Shown here one piece after another: positions 32,242 through 41,820 of a DNA stretch of 64,000 nucleotides (within the stretch, counting starts at the first letter, position 1; each line of letters begins with the position of its first letter). The translations under genes were made by a program, and so were the position numbers. The notes below the pieces were generated by a model, which searched no databases, had not been told where the DNA came from, and worked only from the letters and a program-made list of their open reading frames with translations. This DNA is from Deltaproteobacteria bacterium (GTDB taxonomy: Bacteria; Desulfobacterota; Desulfobulbia; Desulfobulbales; SURF-16). The DNA lies in NCBI GenBank assembly GCA_016219175.1, contig JACRCD010000062.1:1-64000 (forward strand), in the 5' to 3' direction.

Positions 32242-33411
32242 TCATGGAATTTGCGATCCATGGCATTTTTCACAGAATTGCCGCTGTCCGCTGCCGAATT
32301 CCGCGACGATGTCCCGGCCGTAGTAACTGTAATAGACATCGGTGGGCGTCACGCCGGCATCACCCATGGCCGGGTGGGACTGGGCCAGCAGGGTGGCTGT
32401 AAAATCCCAGCGGCCGCTGTTGGCAAAGGCGGAGGCATGGGCCCGGTGGCAGGTGAGGCACATGACGTTTGCGTTGGCATTGGGTCCCTGGCTGCTGTTC
32501 GGGTCAAGCAGGTCCGGGATGCTGACGCCTCGCTCAAAGGGGACGAACTGAAGATAGGCGGTGGCTGACATACCGGAAAAATCACCGGTGCGCAGATAGG
32601 TATTGTAGTTGGCGATGATGTCGCTTTCCAGTTTTTCGCTGTTGCCGGCGGGATGCTCAAAACCGCCGGCGGATTCATGTTTACTGTTCAGCACGCCGCT
32701 ATGGCAGTTGGCGCACCACTCGCTCATGCCCGAACCGTAATCCACATGGGAAGCATCTGATTCAGAGAATTTGCTGACACTGCTTTGCCTGGCAATCGGG
32801 GCGTCATTGGTAAAGGAGTTTCCCGATCCCCCGCTGTAAGAGGAATCGCCCAGCAGCCGATAATTGCCGGCGATGGTTCCCGCCACCCCCTGATCTCCAT
32901 AGGAGCCGGAGCCCGAGACCGGCTGGCCGCCAAGCGCGCTGCCCCCGGAGACCTGGCCATGGGGGTCATGGCAGCTGGTGCAGCCAAGTTTGGCCGCGGG
33001 GTAGGTGCCTCCGGGCGCCTGAAAGAGAAGGGGGTCGGCCAGCAGGTTGTAATCAATGGCAATGATATTATGGCCGTGCTCGTAACCGGGACTCTGGCCG
33101 TCGATCCAGCTGAAATTTCTGGTCAGCCAGTAGAAATCTCCCCCCGGAGTGAGGGCCGAGCCGTCCGGGCTGAACACCGAAGGGCTGCTGGGACCGCCGA
33201 AACCGCTGTGGCAGTTCAGGCAGATGGAGCTTGAGTCGCTTTTCCGCAGGAGCCACTGGCTGCCGGGCTGGCCTGAGTGCATGGAGTGGCAGCCAGTGCA
33301 GCTCCCGGCCCCGCCGGAGTGGAAACCCTGGCCCAGGGTGCTGCCGGGGCTTCCCGCCAGGAGAGCCCCGCTGCAGAACATTAAGGCGGCAATATGTGGG
33401 AATCTGGCCAT
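32242..33411 (-). CDS. OmcS-like hexaheme cytochrome, second paralogue
   Basis: About 389 residues from ATG 33411 (the in-frame TTG at 33417 is less likely). Signal peptide, then six heme motifs: CTGCH, CLNCH, CTSCH, CANCH, CLTCH and CEKCH. Segments such as GGAGSCTGCHSMHS, PGGDFYWLTRNFSW, YEHGHNIIAIDYN, APGGTYPAAKLGCTSCHDP and GMSEWCANCH follow the order of Geobacter OmcS, the protein that polymerises into conductive filaments. It differs from the first paralogue by a serine/glycine-rich middle and a different C-terminus (CEKCHGSQIP). It starts the 14-kb gene run leading to the big cytochromes. It may be a minor or tip subunit of the filament; that is inference. Confidence 0.82.
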   Translation of the reverse strand: MARFPHIAALMFCSGALLAGSPGSTLGQGFHSGGAGSCTGCHSMHSGQPGSQWLLRKSDSSSICLNCHSGFGGPSSPSVFSPDGSALTPGGDFYWLTRNFSWIDGQSPGYEHGHNIIAIDYNLLADPLLFQAPGGTYPAAKLGCTSCHDPHGQVSGGSALGGQPVSGSGSYGDQGVAGTIAGNYRLLGDSSYSGGSGNSFTNDAPIARQSSVSKFSESDASHVDYGSGMSEWCANCHSGVLNSKHESAGGFEHPAGNSEKLESDIIANYNTYLRTGDFSGMSATAYLQFVPFERGVSIPDLLDPNSSQGPNANANVMCLTCHRAHASAFANSGRWDFTATLLAQSHPAMGDAGVTPTDVYYSYYGRDIVAEFGSGQRQFCEKCHGSQIP

Positions 33412-33545
33412 AAGCAATTTTTCATTTCATGTTCCCGGATGGGGAAAATCCCTGACAATTCATCAATATTATTATTGTAGGGATGGAAGCTCATTTGGCA
33501 AGCAAAATATTGCCTGAACTGAACAGGCCGATTGGCTGTGGTCTT

Positions 33546-33822: not shown

Positions 33823-34977
33823 TTAATCCTTGGCATGACACTTGTTGCACAGTGAACGCTGATGCTCGCCGTATTTGACCGCGATGTCAACCAGCACACC
33901 ATTTTCATAGTAGGGTTTGGCGCCGGCGGCCATGATCGTTACAGCTGTGCCGCCAGCGTTCAAGATGCCGGACTCGGCGATGAATTCCGTCGAGTCATCC
34001 CAGCGCAGGCCGTTTTCAAAGGCCGAGCCATGGGCGCGGTGGCAGGTGAGGCACATGACCACGTCGTTGGCGTCCTCGGCACCCACGGTGTAGGCAGCGG
34101 TTGACACGTCGGGAAGAGCCGAGGTGTCGGTAGCGCCGCGCTCGAAGGGCACCAGCTCGTCAAAGGCCGTGGCAATCAAGCCGGTGAAATCGCCTGACTT
34201 CTTGTAGGCGTTATAGGTGGACATGGGTACGGGGACGTTGGTCGGATGCATGTTGGCATTGTCATTAAAACCAGAATGGCAGCTCAAGCACCAGGAGGAC
34301 ATGCCTGTTCCGTATTGGACCCTGATGCCGCTGGAACCGTTGGCGCGGGCCACGGGGGCCGCAGAGGTAATGAGTTTGAAACCGTCGTCGCCGAGGAGGC
34401 GGTAGTTGCCGCGAATGGAGCCGTCGGCCGGAGCGGCGGCGCCGTAAGAGCCGGAGACGGAAATGGCTGCGGTACCGGCAGCGGTGCCGCCGTTAACCTG
34501 GCCGTGCGGATCGTGGCAGCTGGTGCAGCCCAGGGTGTTGGCCTGCATGGTGCCGCCGGGGGCGGTGACATTAACGGAGTCCGCCGCAAAACCGAAGTCC
34601 GCGGCTACGATGTTATGACCATGGCTCTGGCCGACTGAGGTGACTACACTTCTTCCATTACTGTAGGAATAGTCGGTTTTTATCCAGAAGAAGTCGCCGC
34701 CCTGGCTCATGGTGCCGCCGTTGGGGGTGGCGATATGGTAGCTACCGGCGGTGCCGTTGTGGCAGTTCAGACAGGTGGAGCTGGCATCGGAGCCCTTCAT
34801 CAGGTCAGCCGCGGTGGCGGAGCCCGATCGCTGGTTGTCCGTGGCGGAGTTATGCATGGAGTGACAGCCGTCACAGTGGGCAACACCGCCGCCGTGAAAT
34901 GCCATGGCTGAACCGGCAAAACCCATAACCATCATCGTCGCGCCTGCTACTAAGGAAATCTTATACGTCTTTTTCAT
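33823..34977 (-). CDS. omcS: OmcS-like extracellular hexaheme cytochrome (nanowire subunit)
   Basis: About 384 residues with signal peptide (ISLVAGATMMVMGFAGSAMA) and six heme motifs: CDGCH, CLNCH, CTSCH, CLSCH, CLTCH, CNKCH. The order and spelling of segments match Geobacter OmcS as I remember it: FHGGGVAHCDGCHSMHNS, GGDFFWIKTDYSY, GHNIVAADF, APGGTMQANTLGCTSCHDPHG, GNYRLLGDDG, GTGMSSWCLSCH, VPFERGATD and the C-terminus QRSLCNKCHAKD. OmcS polymerises outside the cell into a heme-stacked conductive filament. Start: GGAGG directly abuts ATG 34983, so ATG 34977, six bases on, is the better start. The gene has its own sigma-54 promoter, riboswitch leader and terminator. Confidence 0.88.
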   Translation of the reverse strand: MKKTYKISLVAGATMMVMGFAGSAMAFHGGGVAHCDGCHSMHNSATDNQRSGSATAADLMKGSDASSTCLNCHNGTAGSYHIATPNGGTMSQGGDFFWIKTDYSYSNGRSVVTSVGQSHGHNIVAADFGFAADSVNVTAPGGTMQANTLGCTSCHDPHGQVNGGTAAGTAAISVSGSYGAAAPADGSIRGNYRLLGDDGFKLITSAAPVARANGSSGIRVQYGTGMSSWCLSCHSGFNDNANMHPTNVPVPMSTYNAYKKSGDFTGLIATAFDELVPFERGATDTSALPDVSTAAYTVGAEDANDVVMCLTCHRAHGSAFENGLRWDDSTEFIAESGILNAGGTAVTIMAAGAKPYYENGVLVDIAVKYGEHQRSLCNKCHAKD

Positions 34978-35002
34978 TTTCATCCTCCAAGATGATTTTT
35001 TT

Positions 35003-35086
35003 TACCCCGGCAGCCCAGCCATCCTTTTTTTATTCGCAGGATCCGTTGGCTTTGTGTCCCCACCTTGCGATGGGTTTACCCTTTTC
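35003..35086 (-). promoter_or_regulatory. GEMM-I (c-di-GMP-I) riboswitch in the omcS leader
   Basis: Read on the minus strand: AAGGGTAAACCCATC, tetraloop GCAA, GGTGGGGACACAAAGCC, then ACGGATCC, a variable A-rich loop, and GGATGGCTGGGCTGCCGGGG. These are the GEMM-I blocks: the GG-x-AAACC strand, a GNRA-capped hairpin, the G-A-C-x-C-AAAGCC core and the distal helix closing on a GCCGGG strand. The G before TAAACC matches, as I align it, the base that favours c-di-GMP over cGAMP. A CCTCC at 35087-35091, just 5' of the aptamer, can pair with the GGAGG ribosome site at 34984-34988, suggesting translational control. Confidence 0.75.
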
Positions 35087-35094
35087 GGAGGATT

Positions 35095-35655
35095 TTTTCA
35101 TTGTCGTCAATCCGACAATTTGTCATGCAAGTCTTTCGAGTTTCCCGTTGTTTTGGTACTGACTTTTTTTGGCCTTTCCCCTCCTGTTCCTGTTTGACCT
35201 TTTCTCTTTCGTTGCCCCGGTGTCTGTTCTTGCGGGGGCGCCGAATCCCCTGTTTTGAAGTAGTCTCTCGCCGGTCTGGTGTTCTGGTATATGAGCAAGG
35301 GTTATGCCACAATGTGTTATTTATTTAAAACAATAACAAAATCGTATTGTTACGGGGAAAAAATAAAAGATGATACCGGCTTGGCAAGGGGTGATCTGGT
35401 ATTTTCACTAAAACCGATCTGGGGATTTAGCTAGAAGTTCACGGCCCATGTCAGTAACCGCGGAAAAGCAGGCGAAATGGCTGAAGTGAACGGCATGGAT
35501 TCCGGGTCGCGTTTCGCTTGCCCGGAATGACGTCTTGCCGACAGGTTCGAATGACGGTAGTCCTGATGCGGGGTGAGGGGGAAGTTTCAACGATGGAACT
35601 TGCATGGAAAAACCAGGAGGGGAAAACGATCAAGCGAGAGGCGTGAAATCAGCGA
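35095..35655. other. Leader and intergenic region upstream of the riboswitch
   Basis: No gene is seen. It holds the sigma-54 site at 35295-35309, a small TTGTCG/CGACAA hairpin near 35103-35120, and an inverted repeat ATTCCGGG/CCCGGAAT at 35499-35528 that looks like a relic of a dispersed palindromic repeat. Short open frames here have no support. Confidence 0.6.
35295..35309 (-). promoter_or_regulatory. Sigma-54 promoter of omcS
   Basis: Minus-strand TGGCATAACCCTTGC, with GG at -24 and GC at -12 in exact spacing. The start of transcription would be near 35283, giving a leader of about 300 bases that contains the GEMM aptamer. Confidence 0.75.
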
Positions 35656-37176: not shown

Positions 37177-37869
37177 GTGGAAAAAAATATCCTTGTGGTC
37201 GATGATAACCAGCTCATCCTGTATGGCCTGGCCAGGGCCTTGCATTCGGGTTCTTTTGCCGTGCAAACGGCAACCACGGCGCAAATGGCGGTGGAAAAGC
37301 TTTCTTGCTGCCCATACGACCTCTGTCTGCTGGATGTCCACCTCGCTGACTTGAACGGTTTGGAGCTCATGAAGATGATCAAGGATATCTGCCCGAAGAC
37401 CAAGTTCATTATCATGACCGCAAGCTGCCTTGACTCTCCCGAGCTAAGGGAAAACATCAACGAAGCCATGGCTAGCGGGGCCTGCCACTTTATCGCCAAG
37501 CCTTTTAATCTCAGAGAGGTCACGGAAGTGGTGCGGTGGGTTTTGACGGAAGGAGCTGACTTTCATACCGGTTTCCGTTTCACCGGCAGCGGTTTTGTGA
37601 AAAGATCAAGAAAAAATCCCAGGAAGCCCTGTGGTGAAAACATAGATTTTCAGATGAGCGTCATCGACCAGGGAACCTCCACCCGCTGGTCACTTGAGGC
37701 GCTGGCGGTCGATATCAGCGACGGCGGCCTTGGCTTACTGAGCCAGTACCCTTTGAAGGAATCGCAGATTATCGGGTTTGATGAACAAATGGGCAACAGA
37801 ACCGGGGTGGTCGCTTGGAGTAAAATGACGGATGAAGGAAATTGGAGGGTTGGGATCAGATTCGCCTGA
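37177..37869 (+). CDS. Response regulator with C-terminal PilZ domain
   Basis: A 230-residue cytoplasmic protein. The receiver domain (1-120) has the acid pair D9/D10, phosphoacceptor D53 (LCLLDVHL), T81 and K108 (IAKPF). After a basic linker, the second half resembles PilZ: RSRKNPRKP for the R-x-x-x-R side and AVDISDGGLGLLS for the D-x-S-x-x-G side, so it may bind c-di-GMP. Start is GTG 37177 with GAGGG ahead. It faces away from the cytochrome cluster and neighbours an NtrC/kinase operon. Joint phosphorylation and c-di-GMP input would tie in with the c-di-GMP-type riboswitch before omcS, though a direct link is inference. Confidence 0.82.
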   Translation: MEKNILVVDDNQLILYGLARALHSGSFAVQTATTAQMAVEKLSCCPYDLCLLDVHLADLNGLELMKMIKDICPKTKFIIMTASCLDSPELRENINEAMASGACHFIAKPFNLREVTEVVRWVLTEGADFHTGFRFTGSGFVKRSRKNPRKPCGENIDFQMSVIDQGTSTRWSLEALAVDISDGGLGLLSQYPLKESQIIGFDEQMGNRTGVVAWSKMTDEGNWRVGIRFA

Positions 37870-37894: not shown

Positions 37895-39295
37895 CTATTT
37901 TAAATCATATTTTTTCACCTGGTAGCGCAGGGTGTCATAGGAAATATTCAGCAATTTCGCGGCCTTGGTCTGATTGCCTCCTACCCTTTCCAGGGCCTGC
38001 CGGATCAAATCCTTTTCAACGTCCTCCAGGGATATTCCCTCCTCGGGCAGGCTTAGCCGCCCGTGCTCGTAAGCCGGGACACTAGACTCTTCTTCCCCGG
38101 TCAGCCCCATGGCCAGATGTTTCGGCTTGATAATTTCCTCATTTTCCAGGACCACGATGCGCTCAATGACATTTTTCAGTTCCCGGATATTGCCGGGCCA
38201 GGCGTAGGAGACGATAATCTTCATGGCCTCGGGCGAGAATGCTTTGATGTTTTTCTTCAGGTATTTCTGGGAAAAATACACGAGAAAGTATTCCGCCAAT
38301 CGCGGGATGTCTTCCTTTCTTTCGCGCAGGGGCGGCAGTTGAATGGCAAAAATATTCAAGCGGAAGTACAGGTCCTCGCGGAACTCCTTGTTGGCCACCG
38401 CGGACTTCAGATCTTTATTGGTGGTGGAAATCACGGTCACATCAATGGGGAGATCAATTCTGCCGCCCAACCGGCGCACCTTGCGCTCTTCCAGGACGCG
38501 CAGAAATTTGCTCTGCAGGTCCAGGCGCATATCGCCGATTTCGTCCAGTAAAATGGTGCCGCCGTCGGCAAGTTCAAACATGCCTTTCTTGTCTGTTTTC
38601 GCGTCGGTGAAGGCCCCGCGGACATGGCCGAAAAGTTCGCTTTCAATAAGGTTTTCGGGCAGGGCGGTGCAGTTCACCGAGATGAACGGCACGTATTCGC
38701 TTTCATCGTCTTCGCGCAGATGCCGCCAGTTGTGGATATAGCGCGCCATCACCTCCTTGCCGGTCCCGGATTCGCCGGTTATCAAGACGGTTGAGGCCCG
38801 GGCCTCACCAATTTTTCTGGCATTTTCAATGATTTTAAGCATGGCGGGCGATTGTCCCACCATGGTGTCCGCCAGGGAGGCGGTGCCGGCTTTGCGCAGA
38901 TAGGTGACTTCATCCTTGAGCCGCGCTTTTTCAAGAATAGTTTCAATAACAATCTTGACCTCGTCCACATTGAAGGGTTTGGTGAGATAGTCGGCGGCGC
39001 CAAGTTTCATGGCCCTGATAGCCGATTCCGCTGTATCATCCGCCGTCAGCATCACCACCTGGGTTTCAATCTTTTCTTCCTTGATGTCGGCCAGGATATC
39101 CAGCCCGCTCCGGTCTTCTTCAAGGTGGATATCCAGCAGAACCAGATCAGGATGCCAGGCCGAGATTTTATTGATCACATCATCGGCATTGGTCTGGATT
39201 TTGGTCTCATATCCTTCTTTTTTCAAGGACCTGGCCAGCATGGAGATAATGAGTTCCTCGTCATCAATCAGGAAAATTCTGCCGCGATTTTTCAT
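37895..39295 (-). CDS. NtrC-family sigma-54 response regulator
   Basis: A 466-residue protein: receiver (phosphoacceptor D55 in LVLLDIHL), AAA+ ATPase with Walker A GESGTGKE, the sigma-54-contacting loop GAFTDA, Walker B GGTILLDEIGDM and the R-finger region, then a Fis-type helix-turn-helix with GNQTKAAKLLNISYDTLRYQVKK. It activates sigma-54 promoters when phosphorylated. Its start overlaps the kinase stop by 4 bp, so the kinase is its partner. Candidate targets are the sigma-54 sites in this window (omcS, REC-PilZ, small membrane operons). The GAFTDA and nucleotide motifs are intact. Confidence 0.93.
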   Translation of the reverse strand: MKNRGRIFLIDDEELIISMLARSLKKEGYETKIQTNADDVINKISAWHPDLVLLDIHLEEDRSGLDILADIKEEKIETQVVMLTADDTAESAIRAMKLGAADYLTKPFNVDEVKIVIETILEKARLKDEVTYLRKAGTASLADTMVGQSPAMLKIIENARKIGEARASTVLITGESGTGKEVMARYIHNWRHLREDDESEYVPFISVNCTALPENLIESELFGHVRGAFTDAKTDKKGMFELADGGTILLDEIGDMRLDLQSKFLRVLEERKVRRLGGRIDLPIDVTVISTTNKDLKSAVANKEFREDLYFRLNIFAIQLPPLRERKEDIPRLAEYFLVYFSQKYLKKNIKAFSPEAMKIIVSYAWPGNIRELKNVIERIVVLENEEIIKPKHLAMGLTGEEESSVPAYEHGRLSLPEEGISLEDVEKDLIRQALERVGGNQTKAAKLLNISYDTLRYQVKKYDLK

Positions 39296-40758
39296 TGCGA
39301 AACACCCTGGAGCTGTTGTTTTTCCGGTAAGGTTATGTAAAAGGTTGTTCCTTCTCCAGGGGTGCTGGAGACATGGATGGTGCCGTTATGCAGTTCGATG
39401 AGCCGTTTGCAGATCGCCAGCCCCAGGCCGGTTCCCTTCGGCTTGGTGGTAAAAAAAGGATTGAAGATTTTGCTCAGGTTTTCCGGGCTGATCCCCTTGC
39501 CGGTATCGGCTATGATAATCTGCGTGGCGGCGTTCGATTCTTTTTGGGTGGTGATGGTGATGACGCCCTTGGCCGGGATGGCATCAATGGCGTTGAGCAT
39601 GAGGTTGAGAAAGACCTGCTGCATCTGGCCCTGGTCCGCCACCACGTGCGGAACTTCGGGGCTGAAGTTTTTGACGATCTCGATCTCCTTGAGCGGTTTG
39701 GCGGCATTGGCCGGGTTTACCAGTGAGTAGCCGGCGGATTTGATTGTTGTGTCAAGCAGCTGGTGGAGATCAAGGGATACGGGCGCCGGTCCCGAGGGGC
39801 GGGCATAGCTGAGCAGGCTTTTGAGCAGGGACTCGATGCGGTGGATTTCGTTAATGATCCGCAGGAAAACCTCCTTGTCCTCCTGTTCCAGGGTGAGTTC
39901 ATTGGCCAGCACCTCGATGGATACCTTGATGCCCGCCAGGGGGTTTTTTACTTCGTGGGCCAGGCCGACGGCAAGTTCGCCGACCACCGCCAGCCTTTCC
40001 GTCTGTTGCATGTGCTGACACTGATCCTTGAGGGAGTTGGCCATTTCATTGAAGGCCGAGGCCAGCATGGCAAATTCGTCGGGTAGTTTTTCTTGCACCC
40101 GGTAGCGTAAGTCCCCCTGCTGAATTTTCCGGGTGGCGTCGACCAGGGCCTCAACGGAAGTGGTAAACTTATTGAGAAAAACGTAGGCGATCAGGATGAG
40201 GAAAAGCGGCCCCGCGCTGATGAGAAAAAAGAGCAGATGCTCGGTCTCGGCAATGTTGTTGCGGGCCAGGGTGATTCTGTTTGAAATTTTCTCCGATGAG
40301 GTTATGACAATTTTTTCCACCTCGGCCAGCGCCGCTTCTCCCTGGGCGAATGCCCCGTTTTTCTCCTGATCCACTCTTTCTTTCTCACCCCTGATGGTAT
40401 ACACCCTGCTCAACATCTGCATATACCTGTCAATTTGATCCTGGAAGTGATAGAGGGTCTTCAGCACTTCGTCCGTGTGATGGCAGGTGATGCAAACGTG
40501 GGCCGCCTTTTCCATCTCGGTCGCATGGGCCATGAAGAGGTCGATGGGCAGGGCATGAGGTGAATCCTTGAGCAGCAGGTCGGTCTGCACCACGCTGATT
40601 TTATTCTGCAGATCCTTGCGGAGAAATTCCACCTGATGGAGGGTGATGACGTTTTCCAGACCGGTAATTACTTCGTCAATTGAGCGCGCAATATAAATGC
40701 CGCCGCTGAAAAAGCAGAAAACAAGGACCAGCAGGGCAATGAAAACTTTCTTCTTCAT
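39292..40758 (-). CDS. Histidine kinase with a periplasmic c-heme motif
   Basis: A 488-residue sensor kinase from ATG 40758 (MKKKVFIALLV). Two membrane helices enclose a periplasmic helical domain of about 160 residues that carries CITCHH, a heme c binding motif in HVCITCHHTDEV. Then HAMP, a HisKA dimer helix with phospho-histidine in LAHEVKNPLAGIK and an HATPase with N, G1 (DTGKGISPENL) and G2 (GTGLGLAI) boxes. It is NtrB/ZraS-like and co-encoded with the NtrC regulator. A covalent heme would let it sense redox state, NO or CO. Its stop overlaps the regulator start. Confidence 0.87.
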   Translation of the reverse strand: MKKKVFIALLVLVFCFFSGGIYIARSIDEVITGLENVITLHQVEFLRKDLQNKISVVQTDLLLKDSPHALPIDLFMAHATEMEKAAHVCITCHHTDEVLKTLYHFQDQIDRYMQMLSRVYTIRGEKERVDQEKNGAFAQGEAALAEVEKIVITSSEKISNRITLARNNIAETEHLLFFLISAGPLFLILIAYVFLNKFTTSVEALVDATRKIQQGDLRYRVQEKLPDEFAMLASAFNEMANSLKDQCQHMQQTERLAVVGELAVGLAHEVKNPLAGIKVSIEVLANELTLEQEDKEVFLRIINEIHRIESLLKSLLSYARPSGPAPVSLDLHQLLDTTIKSAGYSLVNPANAAKPLKEIEIVKNFSPEVPHVVADQGQMQQVFLNLMLNAIDAIPAKGVITITTQKESNAATQIIIADTGKGISPENLSKIFNPFFTTKPKGTGLGLAICKRLIELHNGTIHVSSTPGEGTTFYITLPEKQQLQGVSQ

Positions 40759-40875
40759 GAAGGCAGGACAATGAAAGTGGTGAATGGGGCGGATTGGCGG
40801 ACAGTAAATCCTGCCCACCCTGCCAAAGGGCCAAGCGTTGCCTGGCAGGAGTTTGTCGGTCTGATTTTGCGGCTC

Positions 40876-41820
40876 TTATTCATTGATATAGTCATAGGTT
40901 GCCGGGTCAAGGCCGATTTTATCGGCATAGTCAAAAACAGGATCATAATCTTTTGGTGTTGCCGCGATAAATTTTCCGGCGCCGAAAGCACGGAGGACCG
41001 TCTTCCCTTCAGGATCCTGGTCCATCCGCAGCAGGGCGTTTTTGAGCTTTTGTTTCAGGGATTCGTCAAGGTCCCTTCTGACTGCTAAAGCATTGGCCGG
41101 CATCTCGGGCGAGATCTCAAGAATTTGCAGTTCTTCCCGCACCTTGCTGTCGGATTCGGCCAGGTGGTCAAAGACCGTATTTTTTGCGGCGCCGATATCC
41201 GCCTTGCCGTGCAGAACATCATAAACGGCATCCTCATGGGTTCCGGTAAAATAGGTTTCGCTGAAGAAGGTTCGGTAATCCTCAATAGCGTTTTCCTTGA
41301 AATAATGCATGGGCAGGAGCCAGCCCGCAGTGCTGGCTTTGTCCACCAAGGCAAACCTTTTGCCCCGCATGTCCGCCCCCTCGCGGATGGGGCTGTCCTT
41401 GCGGACAAAAATCAGACCGTGGTAGGTGGAGGCGCCGTTAGGATACTCTGGCCGGGCCAGGGGTTGTATCGCCAGTTTTCTGATGGCCAGGGCAGCGGCA
41501 AAGCTGCCGAAAAACGCCCCATCCAGGCCGTTGGGCGCAAAATTGTCAATGAGGTTGCCATAGCGGGAGAACATTGACAGCTCGATTGTCGTGCCTGTCT
41601 TTTTGGCAAGATAGGCGGCAAGGGGCTCGTAGCTCTTTTTTTGCGAGAAGATGTCATATTCGCTGATCAGGCCTATCTTTAATTTTTGGGATTGTGCTGC
41701 GCCGGGGGGTTCGTTTGCCTTTTTTTCATGCTGTTGCTGGTCCCCGCAGCCGGTGGCCAGGAGGAAAAAAAGACACACGGCAAAAAACATGCTACAATTG
41801 TGGTATGATTTTCCGGGCAT
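40876..41820 (-). CDS. PhnD-like periplasmic binding lipoprotein
   Basis: A 314-residue substrate-binding protein of the phosphate/phosphonate (PhnD, type 2 periplasmic-binding) class. The lipobox LATGC anchors it. Core segments are LKIGLISEYDIFSQKKSYEPLAAYL, GLDGAFFGSFAAALAI, GASTYHGLIFVRKDSPI, DMRGKRFALVDKASTAGWLLP and DIGAAKNTVFDHLAE. No ABC permease or ATPase is nearby; instead it lies 117 bp upstream of a kinase gene. Many such orphans are ligand sensors for kinases, so it may hand its ligand signal to the heme kinase. The ligand is unknown. Confidence 0.82.
   Translation of the reverse strand: MPGKSYHNCSMFFAVCLFFLLATGCGDQQQHEKKANEPPGAAQSQKLKIGLISEYDIFSQKKSYEPLAAYLAKKTGTTIELSMFSRYGNLIDNFAPNGLDGAFFGSFAAALAIRKLAIQPLARPEYPNGASTYHGLIFVRKDSPIREGADMRGKRFALVDKASTAGWLLPMHYFKENAIEDYRTFFSETYFTGTHEDAVYDVLHGKADIGAAKNTVFDHLAESDSKVREELQILEISPEMPANALAVRRDLDESLKQKLKNALLRMDQDPEGKTVLRAFGAGKFIAATPKDYDPVFDYADKIGLDPATYDYINE

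Follow-up and report, generated by a model that had tools for sequence, protein, structure and literature searches.

GEMM-I riboswitches have already been reported at omcS and omcST of Geobacter sulfurreducens (PMC6456294 and PMC10599522, in the parts of both papers that were available), so that a GEMM-I element in front of an OmcS gene is not the new placement for which the original prediction for the present locus had taken it. The riboswitch at omcST of G. sulfurreducens (Kellenberger 2015, according to PMC6456294) resembles the element described here in its position upstream of an OmcS gene but differs from it by a reported sensitivity to both dinucleotides (PMC6456294). The literature covered, partly in excerpts and with Kellenberger 2015 and Nelson 2015 outside its scope, yielded no description of an anti-Shine-Dalgarno (anti-SD) platform for the GEMM-I element of G. 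sulfurreducens omcS, which is a weak absence. The cGAMP riboswitches of Geobacter pgcA (GSU1761) and pilM share the aptamer fold, the predicted ON sign and the control of an electron-transfer gene with our locus, but they act by preventing termination (PMC6456294 and PMC9262584, excerpts), whereas the leader in our window, by which we mean the whole 64-kb stretch of DNA that was analysed, is free of a terminator-like T-run.

Related c-di-GMP-I riboswitches are known from other bacteria. Vc2 of Vibrio cholerae has the same aptamer, acts at the level of translation and likewise depends on the stability of P1 as the key element, but it is a translational OFF switch (PMC9262584, in the part available). 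Vc1 (V. cholerae gbpA) has the ON response to c-di-GMP that we predict for our locus; it differs in that its authors saw neither a terminator nor an anti-SD and regarded the mechanism as unclear (PMC4744006, available sections). Bc1 of Bacillus thuringiensis, again a c-di-GMP-I riboswitch with a translational component, is distinguished by two terminators and an incoherent dual control (PMC11218506). We propose that the window contains a c-di-GMP-I riboswitch that probably switches on the translation of an OmcS-type nanowire cytochrome when c-di-GMP is bound. Novelty appears to lie in the expression platform and in how widely it occurs, not in the presence of GEMM-I at omcS.

A c-di-GMP-I aptamer in front of an OmcS-type gene

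Searching the window against Rfam with cmscan located a c-di-GMP-I (GEMM-I) aptamer at 35005-35089 on the minus strand, directly upstream of an OmcS-type gene. The match scored 62.9 bits with RF03167 (gathering score 59; E 1.7e-12 for the whole window) and 56.9 bits with RF01051 (gathering score 35). The GEMM-I blocks that had been read from the minus strand in the original prediction were thereby confirmed; the GCAA tetraloop (GNRA) and the three-helix fold are borne out by the RF03167 alignment and by the paired columns of 22 related leaders, which contain compensatory changes. A match to CRISPR-DR39 at 34976-35006(+) remained below threshold (23.8 versus 39) and was taken as chance across the complement of the Shine-Dalgarno sequence (SD). 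By eye, only the window, L051 and L054 have an upstream reading frame that ends inside the aptamer (MTNCRIDDNEKILRKG), and this candidate was discarded. Two further GEMM-I matches are present in the same genome. One (L001) precedes an 86-residue open reading frame followed by a PEP-CTERM-like gene, as judged by eye; the other (L003, 1497-1578) has a T-run and lies before a GGDEF-domain gene with an HD-type region by eye, where a feedback loop is possible.

The gene for the six-haem cytochrome occupies 33823-34977(-) and starts 27 bases after the aptamer. Its open reading frame was called from 34983, a position within the SD; the probable start is the ATG at 34977, which follows GGAGG at a distance of six bases. 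The deduced protein has six CxxCH motifs, as has OmcS of G. sulfurreducens (6ef8), and aligns with it over the mature length (E 1.8e-60). Its mature part is, however, about 50 residues shorter (358 versus 407), and filament formation is only putative. The closest named relative (81% identity) comes from a Desulfurivibrio sp. assembly, which makes a Desulfobulbales-type bacterium, and not Geobacter, the probable host. A second OmcS-like cytochrome gene follows in an omcT-like position at 32242-33417(-), with 48% identity to the first over its residues 18-384 (E 5.4e-76).

One strand shared by P1 and the ribosome-binding site

Helix P1 of the aptamer is formed by CUCCG (35090-35086) and CGGGG (35009-35005) of the minus strand. 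The 5' strand of P1 also represents the last five letters of the anti-SD AUCCUCCG at 35086-35093(-), which is complementary to the SD strand UUGGAGGAU at 34982-34990(-). In its full extent, AUCCUCCGA (35093-35085) forms nine pairs with UUGGAGGAU (34990-34982), one of them G-U. The window contains a single instance of ATCCTCCG-N80..110-GGAGGAT (34982-35093); the mean expected from shuffles is 0.01. The pairing between CCTCC and GGAGG that had been predicted thus stands and is even longer than claimed, but CCUCC (35091-35087) is more than a neighbour of the aptamer on its 5' side, since it runs into the 5' strand of P1.

P1 and the SD helix cannot coexist because they compete for one strand, and formation of P1 in the ligand-bound state should therefore free the SD, corresponding to an ON switch. 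In the ligand-free state the AUCCUCCG strand would leave the aptamer and pair with UUGGAGGAU, and the ribosome-binding site would be hidden; with c-di-GMP bound, the strand would be held in P1 (CUCCG/CGGGG) and the SD would be free. As far as sequence and energies can tell, the SD pairs with an element that is exclusive of the bound aptamer, as expected for SD sequestration.

When the region near the aptamer was folded, the SD-paired state of the window was favoured over the P1 state by 3.1 kcal/mol in terms of secondary-structure energies, which leave out tertiary contacts and the ligand; ligand binding could tip this difference. The accessibility of the SD was 0.25 in the free fold and 0.62 with P1 forced. 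The ensemble of the window varies with the stretch folded: the best probability of SD pairing was 0.62 in the near-aptamer fold and 0.63 in a fold starting just before an upstream AGGAGG (see below), to which 0.19 went, and in the longest fold with the full 5' leader CCUCC paired with AGGAGG at 0.43 and with the SD, at the core pairs, at 0.10. The SD-paired state was favoured over P1 in 21 of 24 related leaders, L062, L063 and L099 being the exceptions, and the probability of the SD helix reached 0.6 in 19 of the 24. Replacement of the anti-SD core in silico increased the mean SD accessibility from 0.08 to 0.43, with a rise of more than 0.2 in 17 of the 24 leaders. A local hairpin, UCAUC-UUGGAG-GAUGA, was considered as the main lock of the SD; it can be recognised by eye in the window, L051, L053 and L054 but is absent from L052, L060, L064 and L074, and is thus not general.

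These data bear on the suggestion that a cyclic dinucleotide sets the synthesis of the cytochrome at translation. Anti-SD pairing points in this direction and is conserved in most of the related leaders; to the suggestion we add that the anti-SD is the 5' strand of P1, that the sign is probably ON and that the aptamer letters favour c-di-GMP.

Conservation of the platform

At a cut-off of E 1e-30, searches for OmcS homologues gave matches in 16 of the 242 genomes covered in the window's order, in 15 of 395 genomes of the phylum, in 32 of 141 genomes of the order of genome G589 and in 6 of 24 genomes of the order of G390; the four sets overlap, and upstream regions were fetched for most of the OmcS matches. 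A covariance model built from 22 leaders and run on 142 partly overlapping loci gave 34 matches. Five of these were repeats, and the remaining 29 comprised 24 leaders with the aptamer beside the SD, four with other platforms and one degenerate. OmcS-like genes with GEMM-I farther upstream and with terminator-like or unclear platforms were seen at L083, L100, L101 and L168. The degenerate match, L188 (539-587; 22.7 bits), looks like what is left of a GEMM element; it precedes one OmcS copy in a genome that has eight OmcS matches.

Within the order of the window the aptamer is located directly upstream in 13 of the 16 OmcS-bearing genomes, including G220 (L062), in which the pairing is absent; upstream of OmcS in G063, G089 and G233 no aptamer match was obtained. 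At least 4 of the 32 OmcS-bearing genomes in the order of G589 have the aptamer (G589, G639, G717 and G389), and it is therefore not universal at OmcS genes. L082 and L127, the closest relatives of G. sulfurreducens OmcS that were examined (77% and 73% identity, respectively, over about 206 residues), have the anti-SD platform; no leader in the genomes compared was identified as that of G. sulfurreducens omcS itself.

Anti-SD pairs in register form an unbroken run of at least seven in 22 of 24 leaders. When L062, which lacks an SD of this kind, is set aside, 186 of 207 cells in the remaining 23 leaders are paired, compared to 74-117 in eight registers slid by one to four places. Shuffling of the partners among the leaders gave a mean of 179.9 (s.d. 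1.9; P 0.004 for the 186 observed). An A-U pair of the anti-SD helix is replaced by C-G in L084, L087 and L099, all of one family, and the changes elsewhere are one-sided and lead to G-U. In P1, C-G is replaced by U-A in L082 and, by eye, also in L064 and L298. Exceptions are L062, which has no pairing, L063 with six pairs and L061 with an inner mismatch. The covariation of the anti-SD is real but modest, because the SD is itself constrained and varies little, the leaders share ancestry and the C-G exchange is a single event.

A helix of at least seven pairs with the SD was detected in 21 of 24 OmcS leaders (not in L061, L062 and L063) versus only 1 of 29 other GEMM-I leaders, a control set that is not a random sample and consists of the best-scoring GEMM-I of each genome together with L001 and L003. 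In the one control (L040) the helix falls outside CCUCC. The measure compares 12 letters around the 5' strand of P1 with 60 bases downstream and gave the same result when 300 bases were allowed; L038, a partial match, and L045, which is the same OmcS leader as L061, were left out of the controls. A run of six T (T6) follows within 120 bases in 24 of 27 controls (absent in L029, L034 and L040; L024 and L043 uncounted), whereas none of the 24 OmcS leaders has T6 within 45 bases after P1 (T5 in L052 and L061), and on this ground an intrinsic terminator in these leaders was rejected. Within this sample, the anti-SD platform therefore appears to be a peculiarity of OmcS-type genes.

When the aptamer model was run against 242 genomes, 17 matches of at least 79.9 bits were listed, followed by a gap to 71.7; 15 were already known leaders of the order and two (L291 and L298) were new. 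In both new leaders seven anti-SD letters pair with a GGAGGA SD, a hairpin is located just upstream and multihaem genes lie downstream, and the SD-paired state is favoured by 7.5 (L291) and 6.4 kcal/mol (L298). Note that the scan favours their 5' strand because the first nine columns of the model carry the anti-SD consensus; the SD side is outside the model. The L298 cytochrome matches OmcS (E 5.7e-9), with a neighbour that resembles an NHL-repeat protein by eye. For the L291 cytochrome, with about seven haem motifs by eye, the OmcS-type label is weaker because no PDB match was obtained at 0.001. Nine lower-scoring matches (L299-L305, L308 and L309) each have a terminator-type T-run, again by eye. 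A pattern scan of the phylum with ATCCTCCG-N20..45-CAAAG matched 358 of 395 genomes; these matches were judged mostly chance and are uninformative.

Output and ligand of the switch

Translation is generally coupled with Rho action and mRNA decay. A hidden SD that stops translation might thus expose the transcript to Rho or to RNases, and the main output of the switch would then be the mRNA level, through termination or decay. We regard this as not very likely. The 2-3 fold decrease of omcST RNA without GacA in G. sulfurreducens (PMC6456294, part of the text) would fit such an output, but the lack of T6 after P1 in all 24 leaders speaks against it, and so does the rise of OmcS protein at constant RNA in a G. 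sulfurreducens regulator mutant, which would suit translational control (PMC10599522, part of the text).

Of the two dinucleotides, c-di-GMP is the likelier ligand compared to cGAMP, as suggested by the letters of the aptamer and by a survey of GGDEF enzymes. The ligand-contact letters of the window are G20/A47/C92, in what we take to be Vc2 numbering, and correspond to the c-di-GMP pattern of RF01051. The GGC in the name of RF03167 presumably denotes the same letters 20/47/92; its consensus G47 (GACGCGAA) is replaced in the window by A47 (GACACAAA), and the aptamer was therefore filed as c-di-GMP-I and not as a GGC variant, the RF03167 label not being accepted at face value. A47 is kept in 22 of 22 leaders. 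Position 92, C in the window, is T in L062, and position 20 is A in two of the 22 (L058 and L066) and C in one. The presence of A20, which we take to define GEMM-Ib (cGAMP) riboswitches and which is presumably found in those of pgcA and pilM, does not apply to the window with its G20. Considering further OmcS leaders, letter 20 is A or C in L058, L066, L174, L098 and L127 (for L174 and L127, as read by eye), which hints that the ligand may have changed within a single gene family.

The genome of the window (98.4% complete) has 33 GGDEF matches, represented by 32 stretches that were in part read by eye, and no Hypr GGDEF was recognised among them: the Hypr position is Asp in 29 and Asn in two (L212 and L222), L221 has no motif, and Ser/Thr was found in none. 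The Hypr signature is Ser, or Ser/Thr with GGDE[F/Y] (PMC6456294, excerpt), and the position-20 equivalent is described as a selectivity factor, not as a hard filter (PMC9262584, excerpt). G717 served as a positive control and revealed three Ser/Thr-type GGDEF domains (L269, L271 and L280) among 32 stretches (L252-L283) of its 36 GGDEF matches, two of the stretches being unparsed.

The same switch could have 3',3'-cGAMP or both dinucleotides as its natural ligand, which we consider unlikely. The sensitivity to both dinucleotides reported for the omcST riboswitch (PMC6456294, excerpt) is in agreement with this assumption, as are A20 in L058, L066 and, by eye, L174 and the three Ser/Thr-type GGDEF domains in the genome of L174 (G717). 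The G20 of the window and its 32 GGDEF stretches without a recognised Hypr signature argue against it. In G021, the genome of L058 and L066, A20 is found, yet 26 of 28 GGDEF stretches have Asp and two were unparsed (28 fetched; 3 of 32 matches unfetched); ligand letter and enzyme therefore do not track cleanly.

Elements upstream of the aptamer

A sigma-54-type -24/-12 promoter site, TGGCATAACCCTTGCT, is located at 35294-35309(-), from which we infer a transcript start near 35283. The site is the sole exact match to TGGCAYN5TTGCW in the window but is not strong when taken alone, because 0.26 matches are expected on average and 23 of 100 shuffles had at least one. Allowing one mismatch over the 330 bases upstream, such a site was obtained for 7 of the 24 related leaders; direct reading also revealed sigma-54-type sites at three OmcS genes that lack a GEMM match (L009-L011). 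Sigma-54 control together with GEMM-I and OmcS, proposed as a distinct combination, is therefore not general. An inverted repeat, AACAATA-N9-TATTGTT (35329-35351(-)), just upstream of the sigma-54 site is a possible activator site.

Transcription would probably be driven by the sigma-54 promoter, and the gene would in that case need both an activator and the second messenger. A sigma-54 activator gene with a histidine kinase is encoded at 37895-40818 and a PilZ-containing response regulator, a weak match just under the family cut-off (E 1.9e-4), at 37177-37869(+); the latter is possibly another link to c-di-GMP in the cluster. Promoter site, activator and PilZ regulator suggest two inputs, namely transcription and second messenger. 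At 37895-41820(-) the sigma-54 activator, the histidine kinase and a phosphonate-binding-type periplasmic protein lie in a row and are possibly the sensor system of the cluster.

Two elements lie closer to the aptamer. Just 5' of the anti-SD, a 7-bp hairpin with the loop GATTGA (P0, 35100-35119(-); shuffle P 0.0 in 200 shuffles) was found; hairpins at this place, with differing stem sequences, reach a shuffle P of at most 0.025 in 10 of the order's 15 leaders and in 0 of 9 others. Farther upstream, an AGGAGG (uSD) at 35180-35185(-) is a possible third partner of CCUCC or a contact site for the 30S subunit. The motif keeps a fairly constant distance from the aptamer (-73 to -120) and occurs in 16 of 24 leaders, where 2.94 are expected, versus 2 of 27 control GEMM-I leaders. 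It was rejected as the SD of a leader peptide, since, by eye, a suitably spaced start codon is missing from the window and several leaders; it is present in L060, L061 and L080. AGGAGG could hold CCUCC until the SD has been made, or it could attract 30S subunits.

Alternatively, the switch could be OFF, or it could be ON by default if AGGAGG captured CCUCC in the ligand-free state and left the SD free. Conservation of AGGAGG in the 16 leaders and in L298, the value of 0.43 in the longest fold of the window and high capture probabilities in L060 and L063 (0.96 each) and L051 (0.67) would be compatible with this reading. It is nevertheless improbable: among the 16 leaders with AGGAGG, CCUCC goes to the SD in 12, to AGGAGG in three and to neither in L127, AGGAGG offers CCUCC five pairs as compared to usually seven or more by the SD, and the first A of AGGAGG, which fits 16S rRNA, is unmatched by the leader's own strand. 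That the aptamer is a decayed or neutral remnant is hardly conceivable despite a decayed-looking copy elsewhere (L188), given a score above the curated cut-offs, intact ligand letters, compensatory changes and a pairing conserved from the order of the window to genomes whose OmcS shares 73-77% identity with G. sulfurreducens OmcS in the stretch compared.

Implications for OmcS-type cytochromes

A translational ON switch responding to c-di-GMP therefore remains our preferred reading of the locus, and the comparison of leaders gives its mechanism good support. Sequence and comparison establish the aptamer, the identity of the gene, the two exclusive pairings and their conservation, and from these we deduce the ligand, the sign, the effect on translation and the use of the promoter. 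Extending it is more tentative and may prove too broad: OmcS-type genes across the Desulfobacterota would share an RNA device, consisting of AGGAGG, P0, a CCUCC contested by P1, the SD and perhaps AGGAGG, and a c-di-GMP aptamer, that licenses translation of the nanowire cytochrome only with the second messenger and independently of transcription; other GEMM-I elements in these bacteria would work through termination. If the switch operates as proposed, it would be without precedent, within the literature searched, as a c-di-GMP-I ON switch with a clear anti-SD mechanism.

OmcS filaments carry electrons out of cells. If c-di-GMP gates the output of the nanowire cytochrome at translation, surveys at the RNA level would miss this gating. 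In Desulfurivibrio, a connection has been drawn between OmcS-like cytochromes and the oxidation of sulfide with iron oxides (PMC12545173), and the word riboswitch is absent from the available text of that paper. For G. sulfurreducens, an increase of OmcS protein without a change of omcS RNA was ascribed to an unknown post-transcriptional mechanism (PMC10599522, in the part available), for which the anti-SD platform would be a directly testable candidate.
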